From: Euzebya sp.
Lineage (GTDB): Bacteria > Actinomycetota > Nitriliruptoria > Euzebyales > Euzebyaceae
Direction: 5' to 3'
DNA: 64,000 nt
NCBI RefSeq assembly: GCF_964222135.1
Contig: NZ_CAXQBR010000006.1
Coordinates: 1 to 64,000, forward strand
Part shown: positions 20,598 through 29,430 of the stretch, in pieces
Layout of the letters: the number at the start of each line of letters is the position of its first letter
Position numbering within the stretch: the stretch's first letter is position 1
Made by a program: the position numbers and the translations under genes
Notes under the pieces: generated by a model
Database searches by the model: none
What the model saw: only the letters and a program-made list of their open reading frames with translations
Told to the model about the DNA's origin: nothing

Positions 20598-20683
20598 GCA
20601 CCACCTCAGCCGCCCGCCGCGACCCCGGTGGTAGGGTCCCCCGTCAGCGCTGGACCGGGACGCGGCAGACAGGGGTGGCACAC

Positions 20684-21478
20684 ATGGGTGATGGAGACGG
20701 TCCGCCGCTCCGCCCCGACGTGACCCCCCGCAGCGTGGCCCGCAGCCGCCCGCAGAAGACCGCGATCATCGTGGCCGCGGCCATCGTGGACCGCATCACC
20801 GCGCAGGGCCTGCACCCCGGTCACGTCCTGCCCGCCGAGCGCGTCCTCATGGAGGAGTACGACGTCGGTCGCGGCACCATGCGCGAGGCGCTGCGCTACC
20901 TCGAGCTCCAGGGCGTCCTGACCATCAAGCCCGGGCCGAAGGGCGGCCCGGTGGTCGCCGCGCCCGACAGCCGGCACCTGGCGTCGACCTTCGCGCTGCT
21001 GATGCAGTTCGCCGGCACGAGCTTCGGCGCGGTCATCGACGCCCGCCGCTCCATCGAGCCGGTGACCGCGTCGCTCGCCGCGACCCAGGCCACCAGCTCG
21101 CCCGTGGGGGACCAGCTGCTCGAGTCGGTCACGTCGATGGAGGCGGACCTGGGGGACTGGGACCACTTCCTCGACGAGAACCGGCGCTTCCACGACCTGG
21201 TCGCCTGGGGGTCGGGCAACCCGATCTTCGGCTACCTCGTGAACTCCCTCCACTGGATCACCGACGGCACGGTCCTCGGGATCGACTACCCCCTGCGGTT
21301 CCGCCGGGCGGTGCTCGACGCCCACCGCCGCGTCGCCGAGGCGGTGAAGGCCGCGGACCCCGAGGCGAGCCACGCGGCCATGACCGACCACATGGAGGAC
21401 ACGCGCCGGTACTTCGAGCGGCGCTACCCCCAGGTGCTCGACCAGCAGCTCAAGTGGGAGCAGTTCGGCGGCGCCTGA
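20684..21478 (+). CDS. GntR/FadR-family transcriptional regulator (FCD domain)
   Basis: A 264-residue regulator. The N-terminal winged helix-turn-helix includes LPAERVLMEEYDVGRGTMRE and LELQGVLTIKPG. The C-terminal FCD-type ligand domain carries metal-type residues in FHDLVAWGSGNPI and DAHRRVAEAV, and DHMEDTRRYF near the end. FadR-subfamily members sense acyl-CoAs or organic acids. The ATG at 20684 is chosen because the regulator domain starts soon after. The neighbours are an NTF2-like gene upstream and an EthD-like gene convergent. Its own target may be the region at 22163-22307, where no TTACY box is seen; that is a guess. Confidence 0.87.
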   Translation: MGDGDGPPLRPDVTPRSVARSRPQKTAIIVAAAIVDRITAQGLHPGHVLPAERVLMEEYDVGRGTMREALRYLELQGVLTIKPGPKGGPVVAAPDSRHLASTFALLMQFAGTSFGAVIDARRSIEPVTASLAATQATSSPVGDQLLESVTSMEADLGDWDHFLDENRRFHDLVAWGSGNPIFGYLVNSLHWITDGTVLGIDYPLRFRRAVLDAHRRVAEAVKAADPEASHAAMTDHMEDTRRYFERRYPQVLDQQLKWEQFGGA

Positions 21479-21493: not shown

Positions 21494-22162
21494 TCAGCCG
21501 ACGACGTCGATGGGGCGCGCCAGGTGGTGGGCGGAGCCGAAGACCGCGCCGGCCAGCGCCATGGCCGCCTCGTGGGCCGGCTCGGCGAGGTGGGCGAGGG
21601 CGTCGGCGACCGACGCGAAGGTGAGGACGTCGACCAGGTCGCAGGCGGCGGGTCGGCGCGCGGTGTGCCAGTCGTGTCGGGGTGTCAGCCGCGCGTGGCC
21701 GAGGACGCGGTCGTCGGCCGCCACCACCTCCGCCCAGCGGTGCGCGCGCTCGACCAGCGCGTCGACGCCGCGCTCGGGGTGGGCCCGCCAGAGGGACAGC
21801 AGCGTCACCGGATCCGACGGCCGGCCCCGGTCGAGCAGCTCCTCCCGCGTGCCGAGCACCCAGCTGGCCCGCGACTTGTCGACGAACCGGTCCTCGTCGG
21901 CCCGGACCGCCCCCTGGTAGTGGTCGGAGGCGAAGCCGGCGTCGTGGGCCTCGAGGTCGTCGAAGTCGAGCTCGGAGCACGCATCGAAGCCGGGGTAGGG
22001 CAGCGGCGGGCGCCCGTCGACCAGCACGCCGTGGTGCTGGGTGTAGCGGCGGACGCCGGGGATCGACCCGGCCGCGTCCGCGTGCTCCGTGCGCCAGTGC
22101 GCCTGGAACGACGCCGGCGTCGCGGCCGGGTCGCGGGGGGCCATGCCCAACCTGGTGATCAT
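21494..22162 (-). CDS. EthD-domain protein
   Basis: A 222-residue protein that starts MITRLGMAPRDPAATPASFQAHWRTEH, a typical EthD opening (ferredoxin-like dimeric alpha-beta barrel). The second half again shows a weak EthD-like pattern (LLSLWRAHPERGVDALVERA), so it may hold two fused copies. EthD-type proteins are small partners of oxygenases in ether degradation and some polyketide cyclisations; their chemistry is mostly unknown. It diverges from the MenB/BadI-like gene at 22308. Confidence 0.65.
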   Translation of the reverse strand: MITRLGMAPRDPAATPASFQAHWRTEHADAAGSIPGVRRYTQHHGVLVDGRPPLPYPGFDACSELDFDDLEAHDAGFASDHYQGAVRADEDRFVDKSRASWVLGTREELLDRGRPSDPVTLLSLWRAHPERGVDALVERAHRWAEVVAADDRVLGHARLTPRHDWHTARRPAACDLVDVLTFASVADALAHLAEPAHEAAMALAGAVFGSAHHLARPIDVVG

Positions 22163-22307
22163 CGTCCGCCTCCTGCAGCTCGCGCTCGTTCGATGCGATC
22201 GATTATCCTAGATTCGGTCGACGCCGTCCGCGCCACCCCGCCCGGGGCCGGGGCGCCGACCGCCCCCGAGGGGCGTACGTTGGATGGCCGTGGTGGCAGG
22301 AGGGCAC

Positions 22308-23084
22308 GTGGGTGACGTCCGGACCGAGCAGCGGGGAGACGTGGCCTGGATCACGCTCGATCGACCCGATCGGATGAACGCCTACGACCAGGCGATGGCC
22401 GAGGAGATGATCGCGGCGGTGCGGGACGCCGCCGACGCCGGCGTCATCGTGATCACCGGCACGGGGCGCGCCTTCTGCGCCGGCGGGTACCTCGCCAACC
22501 TGGCCGAGGCCGACGCGGCGGAGCTCCGCGGCATGTTCTACGGGTCCCTCCGCCTGCTCGAGGAGATCAGGCTGTCCCCGCGGCCGGTGATCGCCGCGGT
22601 CAACGGGGCGGCAGCCGGCGGCGGCAACGAGCTGGTGGTCGCCTGCGACCTCGCGGTCGCGGCGCGGTCGGCGACGTTCGGCCAGACCGGCCCGAAGGTC
22701 GGCAGCGCGCCCGTGCTCGGCGGGACGAACCTCCTGGCGGTGCAGATCGGCGAGAAGCGGGCCAAGGAGGTCAGCTTCCTGTGCCGTCGCTACGACGCCG
22801 AGCGCGCGCACGAGCTCGGCTGGGTCAACGAGGTCGTCGACGACGACGAGCTCGAGGCGGCCGTGACGCGCATGGCCGACGAGCTGCTCGCGATGAGCCC
22901 GCGGTACCTCGAGATCGCGAAGATCAGCTCGAACCTGTGGTGGAACAGCGCGCGGGACGGCTACGTCAGCGGGCTCGGGATGCTCGTCCAGGCCATCGGC
23001 TCGGACGACATGCTGGAGGGCGCCCGGGCCTTCATGGAGAAGCGCCGACCCCGCTGGCCGGGCCGGTCGGGGGCGGAGGGCTAG
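22308..23084 (+). CDS. Enoyl-CoA hydratase/isomerase-family protein, MenB/BadI-like ring-opening hydrolase
   Basis: A 258-residue crotonase-fold protein. The GTG at 22308 follows AGGAGGG, better than the ATG at 22284. NGAAAGGGNELVVACDLAVA keeps the first glutamate. The block TFGQTGPKVGS followed by AKEVSFLCRRYDAERA is the hallmark of dihydroxynaphthoyl-CoA synthase MenB and of BadI, which opens 2-ketocyclohexane-carboxyl-CoA by retro-Dieckmann hydrolysis. The second hydratase glutamate is absent, as in that group. No menaquinone genes are near and CoA ligases abound, so a ring-cleaving hydrolase fits better than MenB itself. EchA20 of actinobacterial steroid C/D-ring cleavage plays the same part. 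Confidence 0.8.
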   Translation: MGDVRTEQRGDVAWITLDRPDRMNAYDQAMAEEMIAAVRDAADAGVIVITGTGRAFCAGGYLANLAEADAAELRGMFYGSLRLLEEIRLSPRPVIAAVNGAAAGGGNELVVACDLAVAARSATFGQTGPKVGSAPVLGGTNLLAVQIGEKRAKEVSFLCRRYDAERAHELGWVNEVVDDDELEAAVTRMADELLAMSPRYLEIAKISSNLWWNSARDGYVSGLGMLVQAIGSDDMLEGARAFMEKRRPRWPGRSGAEG

Positions 23085-23089
23085 GCGCG

Positions 23090-23938
23090 GTGGCCGCCGA
23101 CCAGGTCGTGGTCCACGACGCGGGGGAGGGGCGGGTGGTCTGCGTCGACTCCGCCTACGACGCCGACGGGCGCAACACCGGCACCGACGTGGTCGTGACC
23201 GGGTCGTACTGCGGCGTCCTGCCCGCCCGGTTCGTGTCGGCGCACCGGCCCCGCGCAGCCATCGGGCTCGACTGCGGCATCGGCCCGGCCGGGGCCGGCG
23301 TGGCGGGGCTGTGGTACTACGAGGCGCTCGACATCCCGGCGGCCGCGGTCGACGTGATGACCGTCCTGCTCGGCGACGGCGTGGACGTCTGGACCAACGG
23401 AGTCGTGTCGATGGTGAACGACCCGGCTCGCCGCGCCGGGGTCCGGTCGGGGATGGCCGTGGCGGACGCCGCGCGCCGGCTCCTCGCGGCGGACGCCGCG
23501 ACCGGGCTCGGCCCGGCCGACACGACCAACCGCACCGTGGTCGTCAGCGGTGACGACGGGGACGTCGTGTGCACGGACTCCATCGCCTTCGGGCTGCCCT
23601 CAGACACCGACCGGAACGTCCTGTGCACGGCCGGGCACACGGGCCGGAGCGCCGTCCCCTACCTCCGCAGGGTCCGGCCGCGCGGCTTCATCTGCTCGGA
23701 CGGGGGGCGGGGCAGGGACGACTCGGGCATCGCCGGCCTGGCCGTCGTGGGGGCCGAGGGGCTCGCCGGTGCCTGCGTCGACGCCCGCACCGCCGCCATG
23801 GGCGACGGCCGCAGCACGTACGACGACGGCGTGATCAGCGCGCGCAACGACCCCGCGGCCGCGCGTGGCGTCGAGGTCGGCATGCCCGCCTCGGAGGCGG
23901 CGCTCCGCCTGCTGTCCGGACCGCCTGCCCCGCCTTGA
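23090..23938 (+). CDS. Protein of unknown function with two tandem copies of one domain
   Basis: A 282-residue protein in which each half carries the same pattern: GxVVCxDS near the start, then a Gly-rich middle (DCGIGPAGAGVAGL in one half, DDSGIAGLAVVG in the other), then xDGxxSxxNDPAxxxGVxxGM and a DAARRLL/EAALRLL end. The copies are about 115-120 residues apart. There is no signal peptide or membrane segment. I do not recognise a named family, although hypothetical actinobacterial proteins share the motif. The GTG at 23090 is 5 bp after the MenB/BadI-like gene, so the pair is probably one operon and the protein may act on the ring-opened product. Confidence 0.7.
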   Translation: MAADQVVVHDAGEGRVVCVDSAYDADGRNTGTDVVVTGSYCGVLPARFVSAHRPRAAIGLDCGIGPAGAGVAGLWYYEALDIPAAAVDVMTVLLGDGVDVWTNGVVSMVNDPARRAGVRSGMAVADAARRLLAADAATGLGPADTTNRTVVVSGDDGDVVCTDSIAFGLPSDTDRNVLCTAGHTGRSAVPYLRRVRPRGFICSDGGRGRDDSGIAGLAVVGAEGLAGACVDARTAAMGDGRSTYDDGVISARNDPAAARGVEVGMPASEAALRLLSGPPAPP

Positions 23939-24017: not shown

Positions 24018-24890
24018 GTGCTGTTCCTGCAACTCCTCCTCAACGGGATCGCGATCGGCTCCATCTACGCCATCGTCGCCCTGGGGTTCGTGCTGGTGTT
24101 CAAGGCCACTTCGGTGCTGAACTTCGCCCACGGGTCGTTCCTGATGATCGCCTCGTACCTGGCGGTGACCTTCATCGCGGTCATGGAGCTGCCGTTCGCG
24201 GTCAGCCTGATCATCATCGCGCTGCTGCTGGCCGTCCTCGGGGTGGTCCTGCACTACTCGATCATGCGGTTCATGGTCGGCAAGGCGTTCTTCTCCGTCG
24301 TGCTGGTCACGGTCGGCCTCGAGATCGTCATCCGCGCCGTCCTGCTGATCGCCTACGGCCCGACCCCCCGCGGACGCCTGACGGCGCTGCCGCAGGGCCA
24401 GCTCCAGTTCGGGGGGATCATCGTCCCCTACGTGAACCTGTTCATGGTGCTGGCGGCGGCCCTGGCGGTCGGCGCGTTCCTGCTCTTCTTCCAGCGCAGC
24501 CGGCTCGGGCTCCACATGCGCGCGGTGGCGGAGAACCTCGAGGCGGCGGCGGCGATGGGGATCGACCCCAACCGCATCTACGCGGCCGCCTGGGCCATCG
24601 GCCTCACGATGGCGGGCATCGGCGGGGTCATGTACGCCCACTACACCCCGTCGGTCTCCCTCGGGCTGTCGGTCATCGGCCTCCGCGCCTTCCCGGCCGC
24701 GATCCTCGGCGGGATCGACTCCGTCGGGGGCGCGATCCTCGGCGGGCTGCTCGTCGGCATCGTCGAGAGCGTCGGCGCCGGCTACCTGGGGGCCGAGTAC
24801 CGGGATGTGATCGCCTTCGGGATCATGTTCGCCGTCCTGCTGTGGCGACCGTCGGGCCTGTACGGGACCCGCGACCTCGTCCGCGTCTGA
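24018..24890 (+). CDS. livH: Branched-chain amino-acid-type ABC transporter permease (LivH)
   Basis: A 290-residue inner-membrane permease of the LivH class with about eight membrane segments. The LNFAHGSFLMIASYLA motif near residue 35 and the AFPAAILGGIDSVGGAI motif near residue 230 are diagnostic. It starts at GTG 24018 behind box f and is the first gene of livH-livM-livF-livG. In this catabolic setting the system may import a bulky acid instead of an amino acid; such Liv-type importers are known for aromatic and terpenoid acids. Confidence 0.9.
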   Translation: MLFLQLLLNGIAIGSIYAIVALGFVLVFKATSVLNFAHGSFLMIASYLAVTFIAVMELPFAVSLIIIALLLAVLGVVLHYSIMRFMVGKAFFSVVLVTVGLEIVIRAVLLIAYGPTPRGRLTALPQGQLQFGGIIVPYVNLFMVLAAALAVGAFLLFFQRSRLGLHMRAVAENLEAAAAMGIDPNRIYAAAWAIGLTMAGIGGVMYAHYTPSVSLGLSVIGLRAFPAAILGGIDSVGGAILGGLLVGIVESVGAGYLGAEYRDVIAFGIMFAVLLWRPSGLYGTRDLVRV

Positions 24891-24903
24891 TCTGGTGAGG
24901 ACC

Positions 24904-26025
24904 ATGAGCCGATACACGACCGACTACCGCCAGGACCTCCGGCTGCTGCGGACCCGATCGCAGCGGTGGCTCGCAGCCGTCGTCGTCCTCGGGGCGATCG
25001 CCCTGCCGTTCGTCCTGTCGGCCAGCTTCCGACCGCCGCTCGGCTTCCCGTGGAGCGAGTGGTTCCCGGCGATCAACCTGGCCCTCATCGCGGCGATCGG
25101 CGCGGCCGCCTTCAACCTGCTGCTGGGCTACACCCACCAGGTGAGCGTCGCCCACGCGGCGTTCCTGATGCTCGGCACGATGGTCGGCGCCTGGATGGGC
25201 CAGCTCCACGACATCAACTTCGTCGTGGTGCTGATCGCCTCGACGGTCGCCGGCGGGGTGGTCGGGGTGATCGTCGGCCTCCCGGCGCTGCGGTTCCGCG
25301 GCCTGTACCTGCTGATCGCCACCTTCGGCGTGCACTTCTTCTTCTTCCTCGGCTACAAGGAGTTCATCACCGCCTTCTTCGGCTTCAACGCGATCCGCTT
25401 CGACGCGCCGATCGTGCCGGAGTGGCTGCACTGGCTGCCGTTCATCACCCCGGACGACGCCGGGGTCTTCGCGATCAGCGGCAACTTCCGGTGGTACTGG
25501 TTCCTGCTGCCGCTCGCGGCCGCGAGCATCCTCTTCATGTCGAACGTGATCCGCAGCCGCGAGGGCCGGGCGTTCATGGCCATCGCCGAGCACGACGTCA
25601 GCGCGTCGCTCATCGGCGTCAACGTCACCAAGACCAAGCTCCGCGCCTTCGCCCTCTCGTCGGCCTTCGTGTCGCTCACCGGCACCGTCGGGGCCTACTA
25701 CATCGGCGCCCGCGGCGAGGACTCGTTCCCGTTCGAGATCGTCCTCTTCTACGCGATCATGATCATCGTCGGCGGCATCAGCTCGTTCCAGGGCGCCGTC
25801 TTCGGCGCCTTCTTCTTCTACCTGGCACCCGTCCTGTTCGACTGGATCCGCGCCGAGGTGCCCGGCATCCGCTCGATCCAGTTCCTGCAGGACTACGCCA
25901 ACGAGACGAACCTCGCCATCTTCGGCGCGCTGATCGTCATCGTCCTCGTCGCCAGACCCACCGGCCTGACCGGCATGTGGAAGTCCGTGAAGGGATACGT
26001 GAGCTCATGGCCGTACAGCAGCTGA
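24904..26025 (+). CDS. livM: Branched-chain amino-acid-type ABC transporter permease (LivM)
   Basis: A 373-residue permease with about nine or ten hydrophobic segments; LLLGYTHQVSVAHAAFLMLG and the IMIIVGGISSFQGAVFGAFF block are LivM signatures. The ATG at 24904 is preferred, nine bases after an alternative GTG at 24895. The gene overlaps the LivF start by 19 bp. With LivH it forms the membrane channel of the importer. Confidence 0.9.
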   Translation: MSRYTTDYRQDLRLLRTRSQRWLAAVVVLGAIALPFVLSASFRPPLGFPWSEWFPAINLALIAAIGAAAFNLLLGYTHQVSVAHAAFLMLGTMVGAWMGQLHDINFVVVLIASTVAGGVVGVIVGLPALRFRGLYLLIATFGVHFFFFLGYKEFITAFFGFNAIRFDAPIVPEWLHWLPFITPDDAGVFAISGNFRWYWFLLPLAAASILFMSNVIRSREGRAFMAIAEHDVSASLIGVNVTKTKLRAFALSSAFVSLTGTVGAYYIGARGEDSFPFEIVLFYAIMIIVGGISSFQGAVFGAFFFYLAPVLFDWIRAEVPGIRSIQFLQDYANETNLAIFGALIVIVLVARPTGLTGMWKSVKGYVSSWPYSS

Positions 26026-26849
26026 CGGGCACCGGGGCGACCCCGGCGCAGGCGGACGGCGACGGGCTGGTCGTCCAGGGCCTCGCGGTCGACTACGCCG
26101 GCAGCGTCGTCGCCCTCGACGGCGTGTCGATCTCGGTGCCGCCCGGCGGGTTCGTGTCCGTGCTCGGCGCGAACGGCGCCGGCAAGACGACCCTCGTGCG
26201 GACGATCACGAACCTGCTCTTCGTCCACGACGGGCACATCCGCCAGGGGACCATCACCCTCGACGGCGAACCCGTGCACGGCATCGGGGCGCGCCGCCTG
26301 GTCCGCGCCGGCGTCTGCCAGGTGCCGGAGGGCCGGATGCTGTTCCCCCGCCTCACGGTGGAGGAGAACCTCCGCGTCGGCGCGGCGAGCCGCTCGTCGG
26401 CCAAGGAGATCGACGCCGACGTCGACCGCATGTGGGAGCTGTTCCCCAACCTCGTGAAGCGACGCGGGGATCGCGCCGGGTACCTGTCCGGCGGTGAGCA
26501 GCAGATGATCGCCGTCGGCCGGGCGCTGATGGCCCGCCCGCGCCTCCTCATCTGCGACGAGTTGTCCCTCGGCCTCGCCCCCATGATCGTGCGGGACCTC
26601 TTCGACCTGCTGACCCGCCTGAACGCCGAGGAGGGGGTCGGCGTCCTCGTCATCGAGCAGAACGCGCGCATGGCGCTGTCGCACAGCCACTACGGCTACG
26701 TGCTCGAGACGGGCCGCGTCGTCGTCGAGGGCACCAGCGCGGAGCTGCAATCCGACGGCTACGTGCAGGAGTACTACCTGGGCGGTGCCGGCGAGGCCAA
26801 GGAGGCCTACGAGGCCGTCGTCGCCCGGTACGCGAGGAGGAGCGCATGA
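26007..26849 (+). CDS. livF: Branched-chain amino-acid-type ABC transporter ATP-binding protein (LivF)
   Basis: A 280-residue ATPase of the LivF class. Walker A is GANGAGKTT near residue 54, the signature motif reads LSGGEQQM, and Walker B is LICDELSLGLAP. The typical final block of LivF (MALSHSHYGYVLETGRVVVEG) is present. The start at ATG 26007 overlaps the end of LivM. It powers transport together with LivG, which it overlaps by 4 bp (ATGA). Confidence 0.9.
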   Translation: MAVQQLTGTGATPAQADGDGLVVQGLAVDYAGSVVALDGVSISVPPGGFVSVLGANGAGKTTLVRTITNLLFVHDGHIRQGTITLDGEPVHGIGARRLVRAGVCQVPEGRMLFPRLTVEENLRVGAASRSSAKEIDADVDRMWELFPNLVKRRGDRAGYLSGGEQQMIAVGRALMARPRLLICDELSLGLAPMIVRDLFDLLTRLNAEEGVGVLVIEQNARMALSHSHYGYVLETGRVVVEGTSAELQSDGYVQEYYLGGAGEAKEAYEAVVARYARRSA

Positions 26850-27676
26850 GCGCCGCATCGACCGAGGTGGCGCCCGAGGTGGCGCCGCAGATGACCGACC
26901 CGATCCTGTCGCTGCGCGACGTGACGGTGCAGTTCGGCGGGCTCAAGGCCTGCGACGGCGTCACCGCCGACGTACGGCGCGGTGAGCTCTTCGCGCTGAT
27001 CGGCCCCAACGGCGCCGGCAAGACCTCGCTGGTCAACGCGATCACGGGCATCTACCGGCCCAACAAGGGCGCCACCCTGGCCTACACGGGTTCCGACGGC
27101 GACACCCACGACCTCATCGGCCGGAAGCCGCACGAGGTGGTCACGCTCGGCGTCGCCCGCACCTTCCAGAACCTCGGGCTCTTCCCCGGCCTGTCGCTGC
27201 TCGACAACATGATGCTCGGGCGCTACATCCACCAGCGCGGCGGGGTCTTCTCCGGCGGGTTCCGGACCCGCCGCGCGGTGCAGGAGGAGGTCGCCGCGCG
27301 CGCCGCGGTCGAGCGGGTGATGGACCTGCTCGAGATCAGCCACCTCCGCTTCGACCTGGTCGGCGAGCTGCCCTACGGGCTGCAGAAGCGCATCGAGCTC
27401 GGCCGGGTGCTCGCGATGGAACCCGACCTGCTGCTGCTCGACGAGCCCATGGCCGGCATGACGGTCGAGGAGAAGCAGGACGTGGTCCGCTTCATCTTCG
27501 AGATCAGGGCCGAGCTCGACGTCACGGTGCTCCTCATCGAGCACGACATGGCCGTCGTCATGAGCATCGCGGACCGCGTCCTCGCGCTGAACTTCGGACA
27601 GCCGATCGCCCTCGGCACCCCCGAGGAGGTCCAGCGGACCCCCGCGGTCGTCGAGGCCTACCTGGGAGCCGAGTGA
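26846..27676 (+). CDS. livG: Branched-chain amino-acid-type ABC transporter ATP-binding protein (LivG)
   Basis: A 276-residue ATPase of the LivG class. Walker A is GPNGAGKTS near residue 53, the signature reads ELPYGLQKRIELGR and Walker B is LLLLDEPMAGM. In this class LSGGQ is often changed to PYGxQKR, as here. It overlaps LivF at the start and the AMP-binding gene at the end, so it is tightly coupled in one message. The His-loop is in LLIEHDMAVV. Confidence 0.9.
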   Translation: MSAASTEVAPEVAPQMTDPILSLRDVTVQFGGLKACDGVTADVRRGELFALIGPNGAGKTSLVNAITGIYRPNKGATLAYTGSDGDTHDLIGRKPHEVVTLGVARTFQNLGLFPGLSLLDNMMLGRYIHQRGGVFSGGFRTRRAVQEEVAARAAVERVMDLLEISHLRFDLVGELPYGLQKRIELGRVLAMEPDLLLLDEPMAGMTVEEKQDVVRFIFEIRAELDVTVLLIEHDMAVVMSIADRVLALNFGQPIALGTPEEVQRTPAVVEAYLGAE

Positions 27677-29430
27677 TGCCCGACACCGTCTGGTCCCGCC
27701 TGCTGCAGCGCGCGACCGCCGAGCCCGGCTCCGTCGCCATCCTGCAGAAGCGCTTCGGCCTGTGGACCGAGACCTCCTCCGCCGCGCTCGTCGGGCGCGC
27801 CGGGCGGACGGCCCTCGCGCTGCGCGACGAGGGCGTCGGGCGCGGTGACGTGATCGCGCTGGTCCTCGCGCCCCACGAGGACCGCGTGGTCATCGACCTC
27901 GCCGCCCAGCTCGTCGGCGCGCAGGTCGTCGGCATCGCGACCGGCACGCCGCTCGAGACGGTGCGCCACATCCTCGCCGACGCGGCGCCGCGGTTCGCGG
28001 TGGTCCAGGGCCAGGCGGCGGCCGACGGGATCCTCGAGCTGATCGACGCCGGTGCGCTGCCCACCCTCGAGCGGATGTGGTACCTGGACCCCGCCGGCGT
28101 GCAGGAGTACGTCGCGACGGTCCTCGCGCCGTTCCCCGAGGTCGCCGCCGAGGGGTCGCCGCCGGCGGCGCTCGAGGGCATGGTCGCCGAGATCGCGCCG
28201 GACGCCCCGGCGGTGCGCAACCACACCTCGGGGACGACGGGCCTCCCCACCCCGGTGGTGCTCACCCACGCGAACCTGCTCGCCGCCGCCGAGGCGACCG
28301 TGGCGGCGTTCGGGTTGGGCGCCGGCGACCGGGTGCTGTCGTTCCGGCCGCTGTCGGACCCCGTCGAGCGCGGGGCCACGCTGTTCCCCGCCCTGCTGTC
28401 CGGCGCCACCCTCGTCCTGCCCGAGTCCCGCACGAGCGTCGGCCAGGCGATGGTCGAGGTCGCCCCCACCTACCTCCACCTCACCTCCCGGTTCGTCGAG
28501 GAGCTCGCGACCGACGTCCGCCTGCGGATGCAGGCGGCGCACGGGGGGAAGCGGGTGGTGGTGCGGTCCCGGAACCGGCGGGTCGGCGCGGCGGCCGACG
28601 CCGGCCGGACGCCGCAGCCGTCGGTCATCTCCCGCGCCCTCGTCGGCCGACCGGTGCTCGCCAAGCTCGGCCTCGACCAGGTCCGGTGGCTGCTGGTCAG
28701 CGGGACGGCGATCTCGCCCGAGGCGCTCGCGTTCTTCGCCGCCCTCGGCGTGCGCGTGCGGCCGGCCTACTCCTGCGCCGAGGCCGGCGGCATCGCCATG
28801 GCCGCCACCGCCGCGGAGGCGACCGACGACCAGGCCCTCCAGCCCCTCCCCGGGGTCGAGGTGCGGGTGGTCGACGACGAGCTCCAGCTCCGCGGCGCGC
28901 CGATCGCGGTGCCGGACGGCACCGACGGGTGGCTGCGGACGGGGGACCGCGCGGAAGAGGTCGCCGCCGGGACCGTCGTCACCGGGCGCGTGGGGCAGGT
29001 CGTCGCCACGCCCGGCGGCCGTGCCGTGACCGCCCAGCAGCTCGCCGCGCGCCTCCGGTCGTCGCCGTACATCAAGGAGGCGGTGGCCGTCCGGGAGTCC
29101 GACGCCCTCGTGGCCGTCCTCGAGCCGGCGATCCCGACGATCGGCCGGTGGGCCAGCCGCCAGGGCCTGCGGTTCACGACGCCGCGGTCGCTCCTCGAGC
29201 GCCCGGAGGTCCGCGACCTGCTCGAGCGGGCCACCACCGCGGCGGCCGAGCGCCTGGACGTCCGGGTGGACGAGGTGCGCGTGCTGGGCGAGCCGCTCGG
29301 CGTGCGGACGGGCACCCTGACCTTCACCGAGAAGGCGATCGCCGACGCGGTGCTCGCGGCCCCGCTCGTGTCGCGGGCCGCCTCGCCCACGGCACCCACC
29401 GCGTCACCCGAGGGGGCTCCCGCCCGATGA
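27673..29430 (+). CDS. AMP-binding (ANL-superfamily) protein, possibly degenerate
   Basis: A 585-residue protein with the ANL fold, coupled by an ATGA overlap to LivG. The phosphate-binding motif reads NHTSGTTGLPTPV, so the usual lysine after the proline (PKG) is replaced by T-P. The hinge lysine motif GRxKD reads GRVGQVV. A lysine occurs late in LTFTEKAIADAVL, but the usual GKxxR context is absent. ATP-dependent ligase activity is thus doubtful. An AMP-binding protein in a Liv operon often activates the imported acid as it enters the cell. It may act that way here, or it may have another role such as binding or channelling. Confidence 0.72.
   Translation: MMPDTVWSRLLQRATAEPGSVAILQKRFGLWTETSSAALVGRAGRTALALRDEGVGRGDVIALVLAPHEDRVVIDLAAQLVGAQVVGIATGTPLETVRHILADAAPRFAVVQGQAAADGILELIDAGALPTLERMWYLDPAGVQEYVATVLAPFPEVAAEGSPPAALEGMVAEIAPDAPAVRNHTSGTTGLPTPVVLTHANLLAAAEATVAAFGLGAGDRVLSFRPLSDPVERGATLFPALLSGATLVLPESRTSVGQAMVEVAPTYLHLTSRFVEELATDVRLRMQAAHGGKRVVVRSRNRRVGAAADAGRTPQPSVISRALVGRPVLAKLGLDQVRWLLVSGTAISPEALAFFAALGVRVRPAYSCAEAGGIAMAATAAEATDDQALQPLPGVEVRVVDDELQLRGAPIAVPDGTDGWLRTGDRAEEVAAGTVVTGRVGQVVATPGGRAVTAQQLAARLRSSPYIKEAVAVRESDALVAVLEPAIPTIGRWASRQGLRFTTPRSLLERPEVRDLLERATTAAAERLDVRVDEVRVLGEPLGVRTGTLTFTEKAIADAVLAAPLVSRAASPTAPTASPEGAPAR

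Follow-up and report, generated by a model that had tools for sequence, protein, structure and literature searches.

A rare protein family, comprising single-domain and two-domain forms in Actinomycetota, Pseudomonadota and haloarchaea, is represented by a gene at positions 23,090–23,938 of the window, that is, the entire 64,000-nucleotide stretch of Euzebya sp. DNA analyzed here. The genes of this family have catabolic neighbors, namely those for CoA-ligases, crotonases, SDR proteins and transporters and, in haloarchaea, for RuBisCO-like and OiaK-like proteins, and a diverged second copy (denoted beta, the copy in the window being alpha) lies nearby in most of the genomes examined. Our preferred reading, to which we attach about even confidence, is that alpha is a soluble catabolic protein of two alpha/beta domains, most likely an enzyme with an oxo-carboxylic acid, or the CoA ester of one, as substrate and, together with beta, presenting four homologous domains.

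Results

Tandem-domain organization and conserved residues

The alpha gene (23,090–23,938, forward strand, stop codon included) starts with GTG and encodes 282 amino acids. Directly upstream, the stop codon of a crotonase gene ends at 23,084, with the GTG at 23,090, five bases on, and 23,090–23,935 is the exact pick of a codon-usage gene caller. Given this position, the gene call and the 97 full-length homologues read from 80 loci, the gene is real. The first domain covers approximately residues 4–133 (23,099–23,488, forward strand) and the second approximately residues 147–276 (23,528–23,917, forward strand). The original prediction, made from the nucleotide sequence, described two tandem copies of one domain and named a lack of similarity between the halves as evidence to the contrary; this was looked for by alignment, and the halves do align, without gaps and with 47 of 130 residues identical (36%, E = 2e-19). 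The similarity is far beyond chance, given that the local score of half against half is 189 compared to 36 ± 6.6 (maximum 65) when the second half was shuffled 1,000 times, a difference of about 23 standard deviations from the shuffled controls. The repeat unit measures about 130 residues rather than the predicted 115 or so. The three motifs that had been noted in each half were read directly in both: GxVVCxDS as GRVVCVDS and GDVVCTDS, SxxNDPAxxxGVxxGM as SMVNDPARRAGVRSGM and SARNDPAAARGVEVGM, and the AAxRLL end as AARRLL and AALRLL.

Conserved polar residues are present in both halves, which is compatible with the enzyme pseudo-dimer that was suggested at the outset. For two equal active sites the picture is mixed: the D, S, D, S, N series recurs in each half, but the Ser-His motif described below differs between the halves in most sequences. 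The binding of a nucleotide, CoA or metal, also suggested at the outset, received no specific support. The first domain keeps D20, S21, S39, D61, S107 and N110, with the His of an SHGG-type motif changed to Tyr40; the second keeps D163, S164, H183, D204, S250 and N253, with the Ser of that motif changed to Gly182. Among 112 two-domain sequences, in which a D, S, D, S, N series is conserved in each half, D20/S21, S39, D61, S107, N110 and the counterparts D163/S164, D204, S250 and N253 are kept in at least 102 (S39 in 112, D61 in 110, N110 in 112, D163 in 111, S164 in 111, D204 in 112 and N253 in 109). H183 is kept in 108 and replaced in the other four by Ile (three) or Val (one). In the two-domain model described below, these residues lie at, or just past, predicted strand ends, the usual location of the active site in alpha/beta enzymes.

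The SHGG-type motif is split between the halves in 99 of the 112 sequences, which have SY (His to Tyr) in the first half and GH (Ser to Gly) in the second. Seven proteins have SH in both halves, and the remaining six combine SY/GI (three), SY/GV, SW/SH and SY/AH (one each). All six single-domain forms examined have SH. The Ser-His pair is probably ancestral, as it is present in the single-domain and the most divergent forms. If each site lay within one domain, the Tyr and Gly changes would harm both, whereas one site would stay intact if the sites were built across the halves. In most two-domain members, we infer, the site is of the latter kind, combining the Ser of the first half with the His of the second.

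Predicted fold

The two-domain model, predicted from 50 sequences, has a pLDDT of 94.8 and a pTM of 0.80, and a second model, that of a 134-aa relative which naturally has a single domain, a pLDDT of 96.3 and a pTM of 0.91. The predicted order of elements in each half is strand, strand, strand, helix, strand, helix, strand, helix, strand, helix, helix. With VIA, the first solved structure is 1QW2 for both models: Z = 8.3, rmsd 3.0 and 93 aligned of 102 residues for the two-domain model (next structure, Z = 4.9), and Z = 7.4, rmsd 3.4 and 89 aligned residues for the single-domain model (next, Z = 5.8). Foldseek placed 1QW2 in row 7 with the two-domain model (E = 0.88) and in row 1 with the single-domain model (E = 0.18). 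The predicted fold is common with that of 1QW2, a member of DUF1805; as the Foldseek E-values are not significant, the claim is confined to the fold and does not extend to membership in DUF1805. The DUF1805 profile (PF08827) scored the tandem-domain protein at 20.5 bits compared to a cut-off of 29.5 and aligned only at positions 36–62 of 64, falling short of membership on both counts. Weak matches to this profile, over the last strand-helix unit, were obtained for 48 of 50 members (E up to 0.1), and two loci (L175 and L176) yielded weak DUF1805 matches; the DUF1805 cut-off was passed in none of 296 genomes of the phylum. The domain described here is also longer, at about 130 residues compared to 102 in the 1QW2 chain.

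DUF1805, which we take to comprise PF08827 and COG3377, with YunC in B. subtilis and TA1206 of Thermoplasma (PDB 1QW2) as members, has been known since a structure of 2004. We know of no function for DUF1805 and of no activity, ligand or structure for any member of the family described here, and searches of open-licence papers yielded no function for DUF1805, YunC, TA1206, COG3377 or PF08827. In PMC9425974, 1QW2 is entered as DUF1805/COG3377 without a function, and DUF1805 is 'linked to Trm11', unlike the tandem, paired family analyzed here, whose gene neighborhoods differ.

Profile searches

The sole Pfam match of the tandem-domain protein above the cut-off was to IMS (PF00817; 31.9 bits compared to 23.2, from two short stretches), a profile that was also matched in 50 of 50 aligned family members at E-values up to 0.1. 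The IMS motif region, S-x-x-N-x-x-A-R-x-x-G-V-x-x-(G/A)-M, resembles a strand-helix unit of 27–28 residues in the palm of Y-family DNA polymerases and superimposes closely on DinB (27 residues, rmsd 0.4, 48% identity). Taken at face value, the match would imply a fragment or relative of such a polymerase, a reading to which we assign next to no probability. The best stretch covers only 28 residues (model positions 31–58 of 148), amounting to one strand-helix unit, and the remainder of the domain differs; the rest of the palm is missing, as is every other polymerase part, and the gene neighborhood is catabolic. With single domains scanned alone, IMS was matched in only 27 of 50 (best E = 7.7e-5), and DUF1805 in 21 of 50. 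Every search returned the same short motif, and the polymerase reading was rejected; IMS is spurious as a label, given that it rests on 28 residues. As this profile passes its gathering score on such a motif, automatic annotation could mislabel these proteins as DNA repair polymerases.

The NCBIfam models yielded nothing above a curated cut-off for the tandem-domain protein (best, 16.7 bits compared to 256) and, for the 50 single domains, a best E-value of 0.0057, with no family matched in more than six members. Sequence searches against solved structures detected no full-length relative. The original prediction would have been contradicted by a profile match to a known family with an assigned function; no such match emerged, the lone above-threshold profile match providing no assignment.

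Distribution of the family

Family members were found in 6 of 61 genomes of relatives, 6 of 396 in a sample of the phylum and 6 of 398 from the phylum of a proteobacterial genome; by these counts the family is rare. The original prediction had placed the shared motif in hypothetical actinobacterial proteins, and relatives in actinobacteria were indeed found; the account was incomplete, as proteobacteria and haloarchaea have relatives too, and single-domain forms occur in both Actinomycetota and Pseudomonadota. Plasmid records numbered 8 when matched with the window protein as query and 12 with a single-domain form, haloarchaea being among them, and the annotated plasmid records that were inspected name the family protein 'hypothetical protein'. 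As for a phage link, there was no match in 50,697 records, and viral structures gave nothing at E-values up to 0.001.

A scan of named genomes, from which 80 of 145 confirmed stretches were kept, provided the 80 loci compared below. Because these loci were found with patterns from the clade of the window protein, the locus counts apply to that clade and are raised by relatedness among the loci. Two records call for comment: in L131:6366-7883 (reverse strand), a single-domain member and a TauD-type dioxygenase share one open frame of 506 aa, either a fusion or a lost stop; and L080 (CAMCUD010000002.1), a record titled as a Bifidobacterium breve MAG, contains a large acyl-CoA catabolic cluster, so that its name looks wrong.

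Genomic context

In the window, alpha is preceded by genes for a GntR-type regulator (20,675–21,478, forward strand), whose cluster sits just ahead of family genes in other loci, an EthD-domain protein (21,494–22,162, reverse strand), a member of whose cluster comes immediately after the family gene in 7 loci, and the crotonase (ECH_1; 22,284–23,084, forward strand), for which the best NCBIfam model is BadI at 183 of 467.6 bits, far under the cut-off. Directly downstream, on the forward strand, are four genes of a LIV (branched-chain-amino-acid-type) ABC transporter (24,018–27,676), comprising two ATPases and two permeases, the second permease (24,895–26,025) being identified from its position and from its match to the locus of a relative, followed by the gene for an AMP-binding enzyme of the acyl-CoA ligase type (27,673–29,430). 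As to the pathway of this cluster, profile matches of the neighbors yield only general classes, and nothing was found in the open-licence literature on the gene-content combination of the family.

Gene clusters were compared across 70 loci with enough called genes, the window included (11 of 81 were dropped for too few). Genes were called with a codon-bias script, the output of which was compared by eye with a single annotated locus; the name of each cluster rests on one representative or on members from the window, and the SDR and acyl-CoA dehydrogenase clusters were named from annotated Rhodococcus plasmids and by eye. On this basis, SDR was present in 51 of the 70 loci, crotonase in 48, CoA-ligase in 37, acyl-CoA dehydrogenase in 30, ABC ATPase in 20, and the carboxymuconolactone-decarboxylase-like (CMD) protein and amidohydrolase in 19 each. 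In a proteobacterial locus with two copies, one copy has an amidohydrolase/CMD pair on one side and an AMP-ligase-like gene on the other, and TRAP genes are present as well (the ligase-like and TRAP genes named by eye). Genes for an MscS mechanosensitive channel and a HAD phosphatase were observed 3' of the family gene in 12–13 loci, mostly of Acidimicrobiia (L036, L042, L054 and others).

A non-catalytic role is possible, as transporter and regulator genes are neighbors as well: the protein could bind a ligand, sensing or buffering an imported acid or CoA ester for the transporter or the GntR regulator of the cluster. The position of the LIV genes, the ABC ATPase cluster in 20 loci, the GntR-FCD regulators that adjoin the family gene in some loci, and the TRAP genes found beside proteobacterial copies (by eye) and in 4 of 5 haloarchaeal plasmid loci are all in favor of this alternative, which we nevertheless consider unlikely. 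The transporters go with whole catabolic clusters rather than with the family gene in particular, and the closest same-strand upstream genes of 86 family genes are more often those for SDR (17), crotonase (12) and CoA-ligase (8), with none close in 22. In addition, a set of strictly conserved D, S, H, D and N residues at strand ends is generally more typical of catalysis.

Pairing with a second copy

The genome of the window encodes two copies, the second 56% identical to alpha, and exactly two are present in all four genomes of the genus. Whole-genome searches covered the genomes behind 30 of the 80 loci; of these 30, 24 have at least two full-length copies, with two on one contig in 23, and 6 have a single full-length copy. 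Both copies fall inside the fetched stretch in 17 of the 80 loci, with gaps of 57 to 7,087 bases. A beta clade of 16 sequences (support 0.997) was recovered, which does not include the second copies of proteobacteria. In one relative, the gene order is crotonase, CoA-ligase, alpha, beta, OB-fold, CoA-ligase, thiolase and, after two other genes, the LIV transporter; the genome of the window has the same kinds of genes, spread on two contigs.

Since a second, diverged copy is present in most of the genomes examined, two pseudo-dimers may function together as one unit. The pairing makes an alpha-beta complex plausible, and we infer that the two proteins touch; if two-domain alpha works with two-domain beta, the assembly would hold four homologous domains.

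These same gene arrangements bear on another, rather improbable explanation, under which alpha would have no site and would be a structural or stabilizing subunit of a neighboring enzyme, for instance the CoA-ligase or the OB-fold/thiolase pair. The OB-fold gene directly follows beta, with touching frames, in the genome of the window and in a relative (L136 and L139), and the alpha frame overlaps that of a called CoA-ligase gene in locus L137. However, haloarchaeal and single-domain members retain the same conserved residues with neither partner adjacent.

RuBisCO-like and acid-sugar loci

In all five haloarchaeal plasmid loci, the family gene is followed by genes for a RuBisCO-like protein and a four-carbon acid sugar kinase. 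In the one haloarchaeal locus tested, the best NCBIfam models were OiaX (515.6 bits) and OiaK (441.4 bits), each with a cut-off of 700. These distant members precede OiaX-like and OiaK-like genes, OiaX and OiaK themselves being of the 3-oxo-isoapionate (D-apiose) pathway. D-apiose pathways were reportedly the subject of Carter et al. in 2018. An actinobacterial locus with a single-domain member is similar: the family gene precedes a RuBisCO-like gene (named by eye) and a gene for an OiaK-like kinase, and the locus also has genes for a PGDH_C protein, which we take to be 'ApnO-like', and a relative of a keto-acid-cleavage family, the matches of the last three all being under the NCBIfam cut-offs. 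The likeness to the OiaX/OiaK pathway stops at enzyme matches under the equivalog cut-offs, and no named gene of the cluster in the window is of this kind. We know of no role of the tandem-domain family in a D-apiose pathway. The RuBisCO-like gene beside the single-domain member (L130:6597-7875, reverse strand) was called as two ORFs, perhaps the result of an assembly frameshift. With their OiaX-like, OiaK-like and PGDH_C proteins below the equivalog cut-offs, the haloarchaeal (L172) and actinobacterial (L130) clusters may represent an unassigned branched acid-sugar pathway.

Discussion

The case for a catabolic role of the tandem-domain family is strong, and its members are more probably enzymes than binding proteins. 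The common chemistry of the neighbors, which includes 3-oxo-isoapionate, keto-acid cleavage, thiolase and a BadI-like crotonase, suggests a beta-oxo acid or acyl-CoA substrate. No one substrate common to all loci is apparent, as the pathways differ, with acyl-CoA in some and an acid sugar in others, and with P450, TauD or molybdenum hydroxylase inputs. In the proposed mechanism, alpha would act within substrate-specific breakdown clusters, where its substrate would be an oxo-carboxylic acid or the corresponding CoA ester, working together with the diverged beta copy in an assembly of four homologous domains.

A more specific version of this proposal is decidedly speculative, and we consider it unlikely. 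It holds that the family comprises new enzymes of two fused pseudo-dimer chains and four domains, with the site shared between halves, which perform an undescribed step on a beta-oxo acid or acyl-CoA and were separately recruited to bacterial CoA-dependent pathways and to haloarchaeal RuBisCO-like acid-sugar pathways. Following the duplication, the catalytic Ser would have survived in the first half only and the catalytic His in the second only, the mirror-image site being discarded.

A conserved catabolic component that is common to bacteria and haloarchaea has no family model, and its lone Pfam label, that of a DNA polymerase, is wrong. The family is of interest because of how it was duplicated and how widely it has been recruited, and the split of Ser and His provides a simple, testable case of a fused dimer possibly shedding one of its two sites. 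If catalytic, these proteins would fill a missing step in uncharacterized degradation clusters and would provide the first functional lead for DUF1805.
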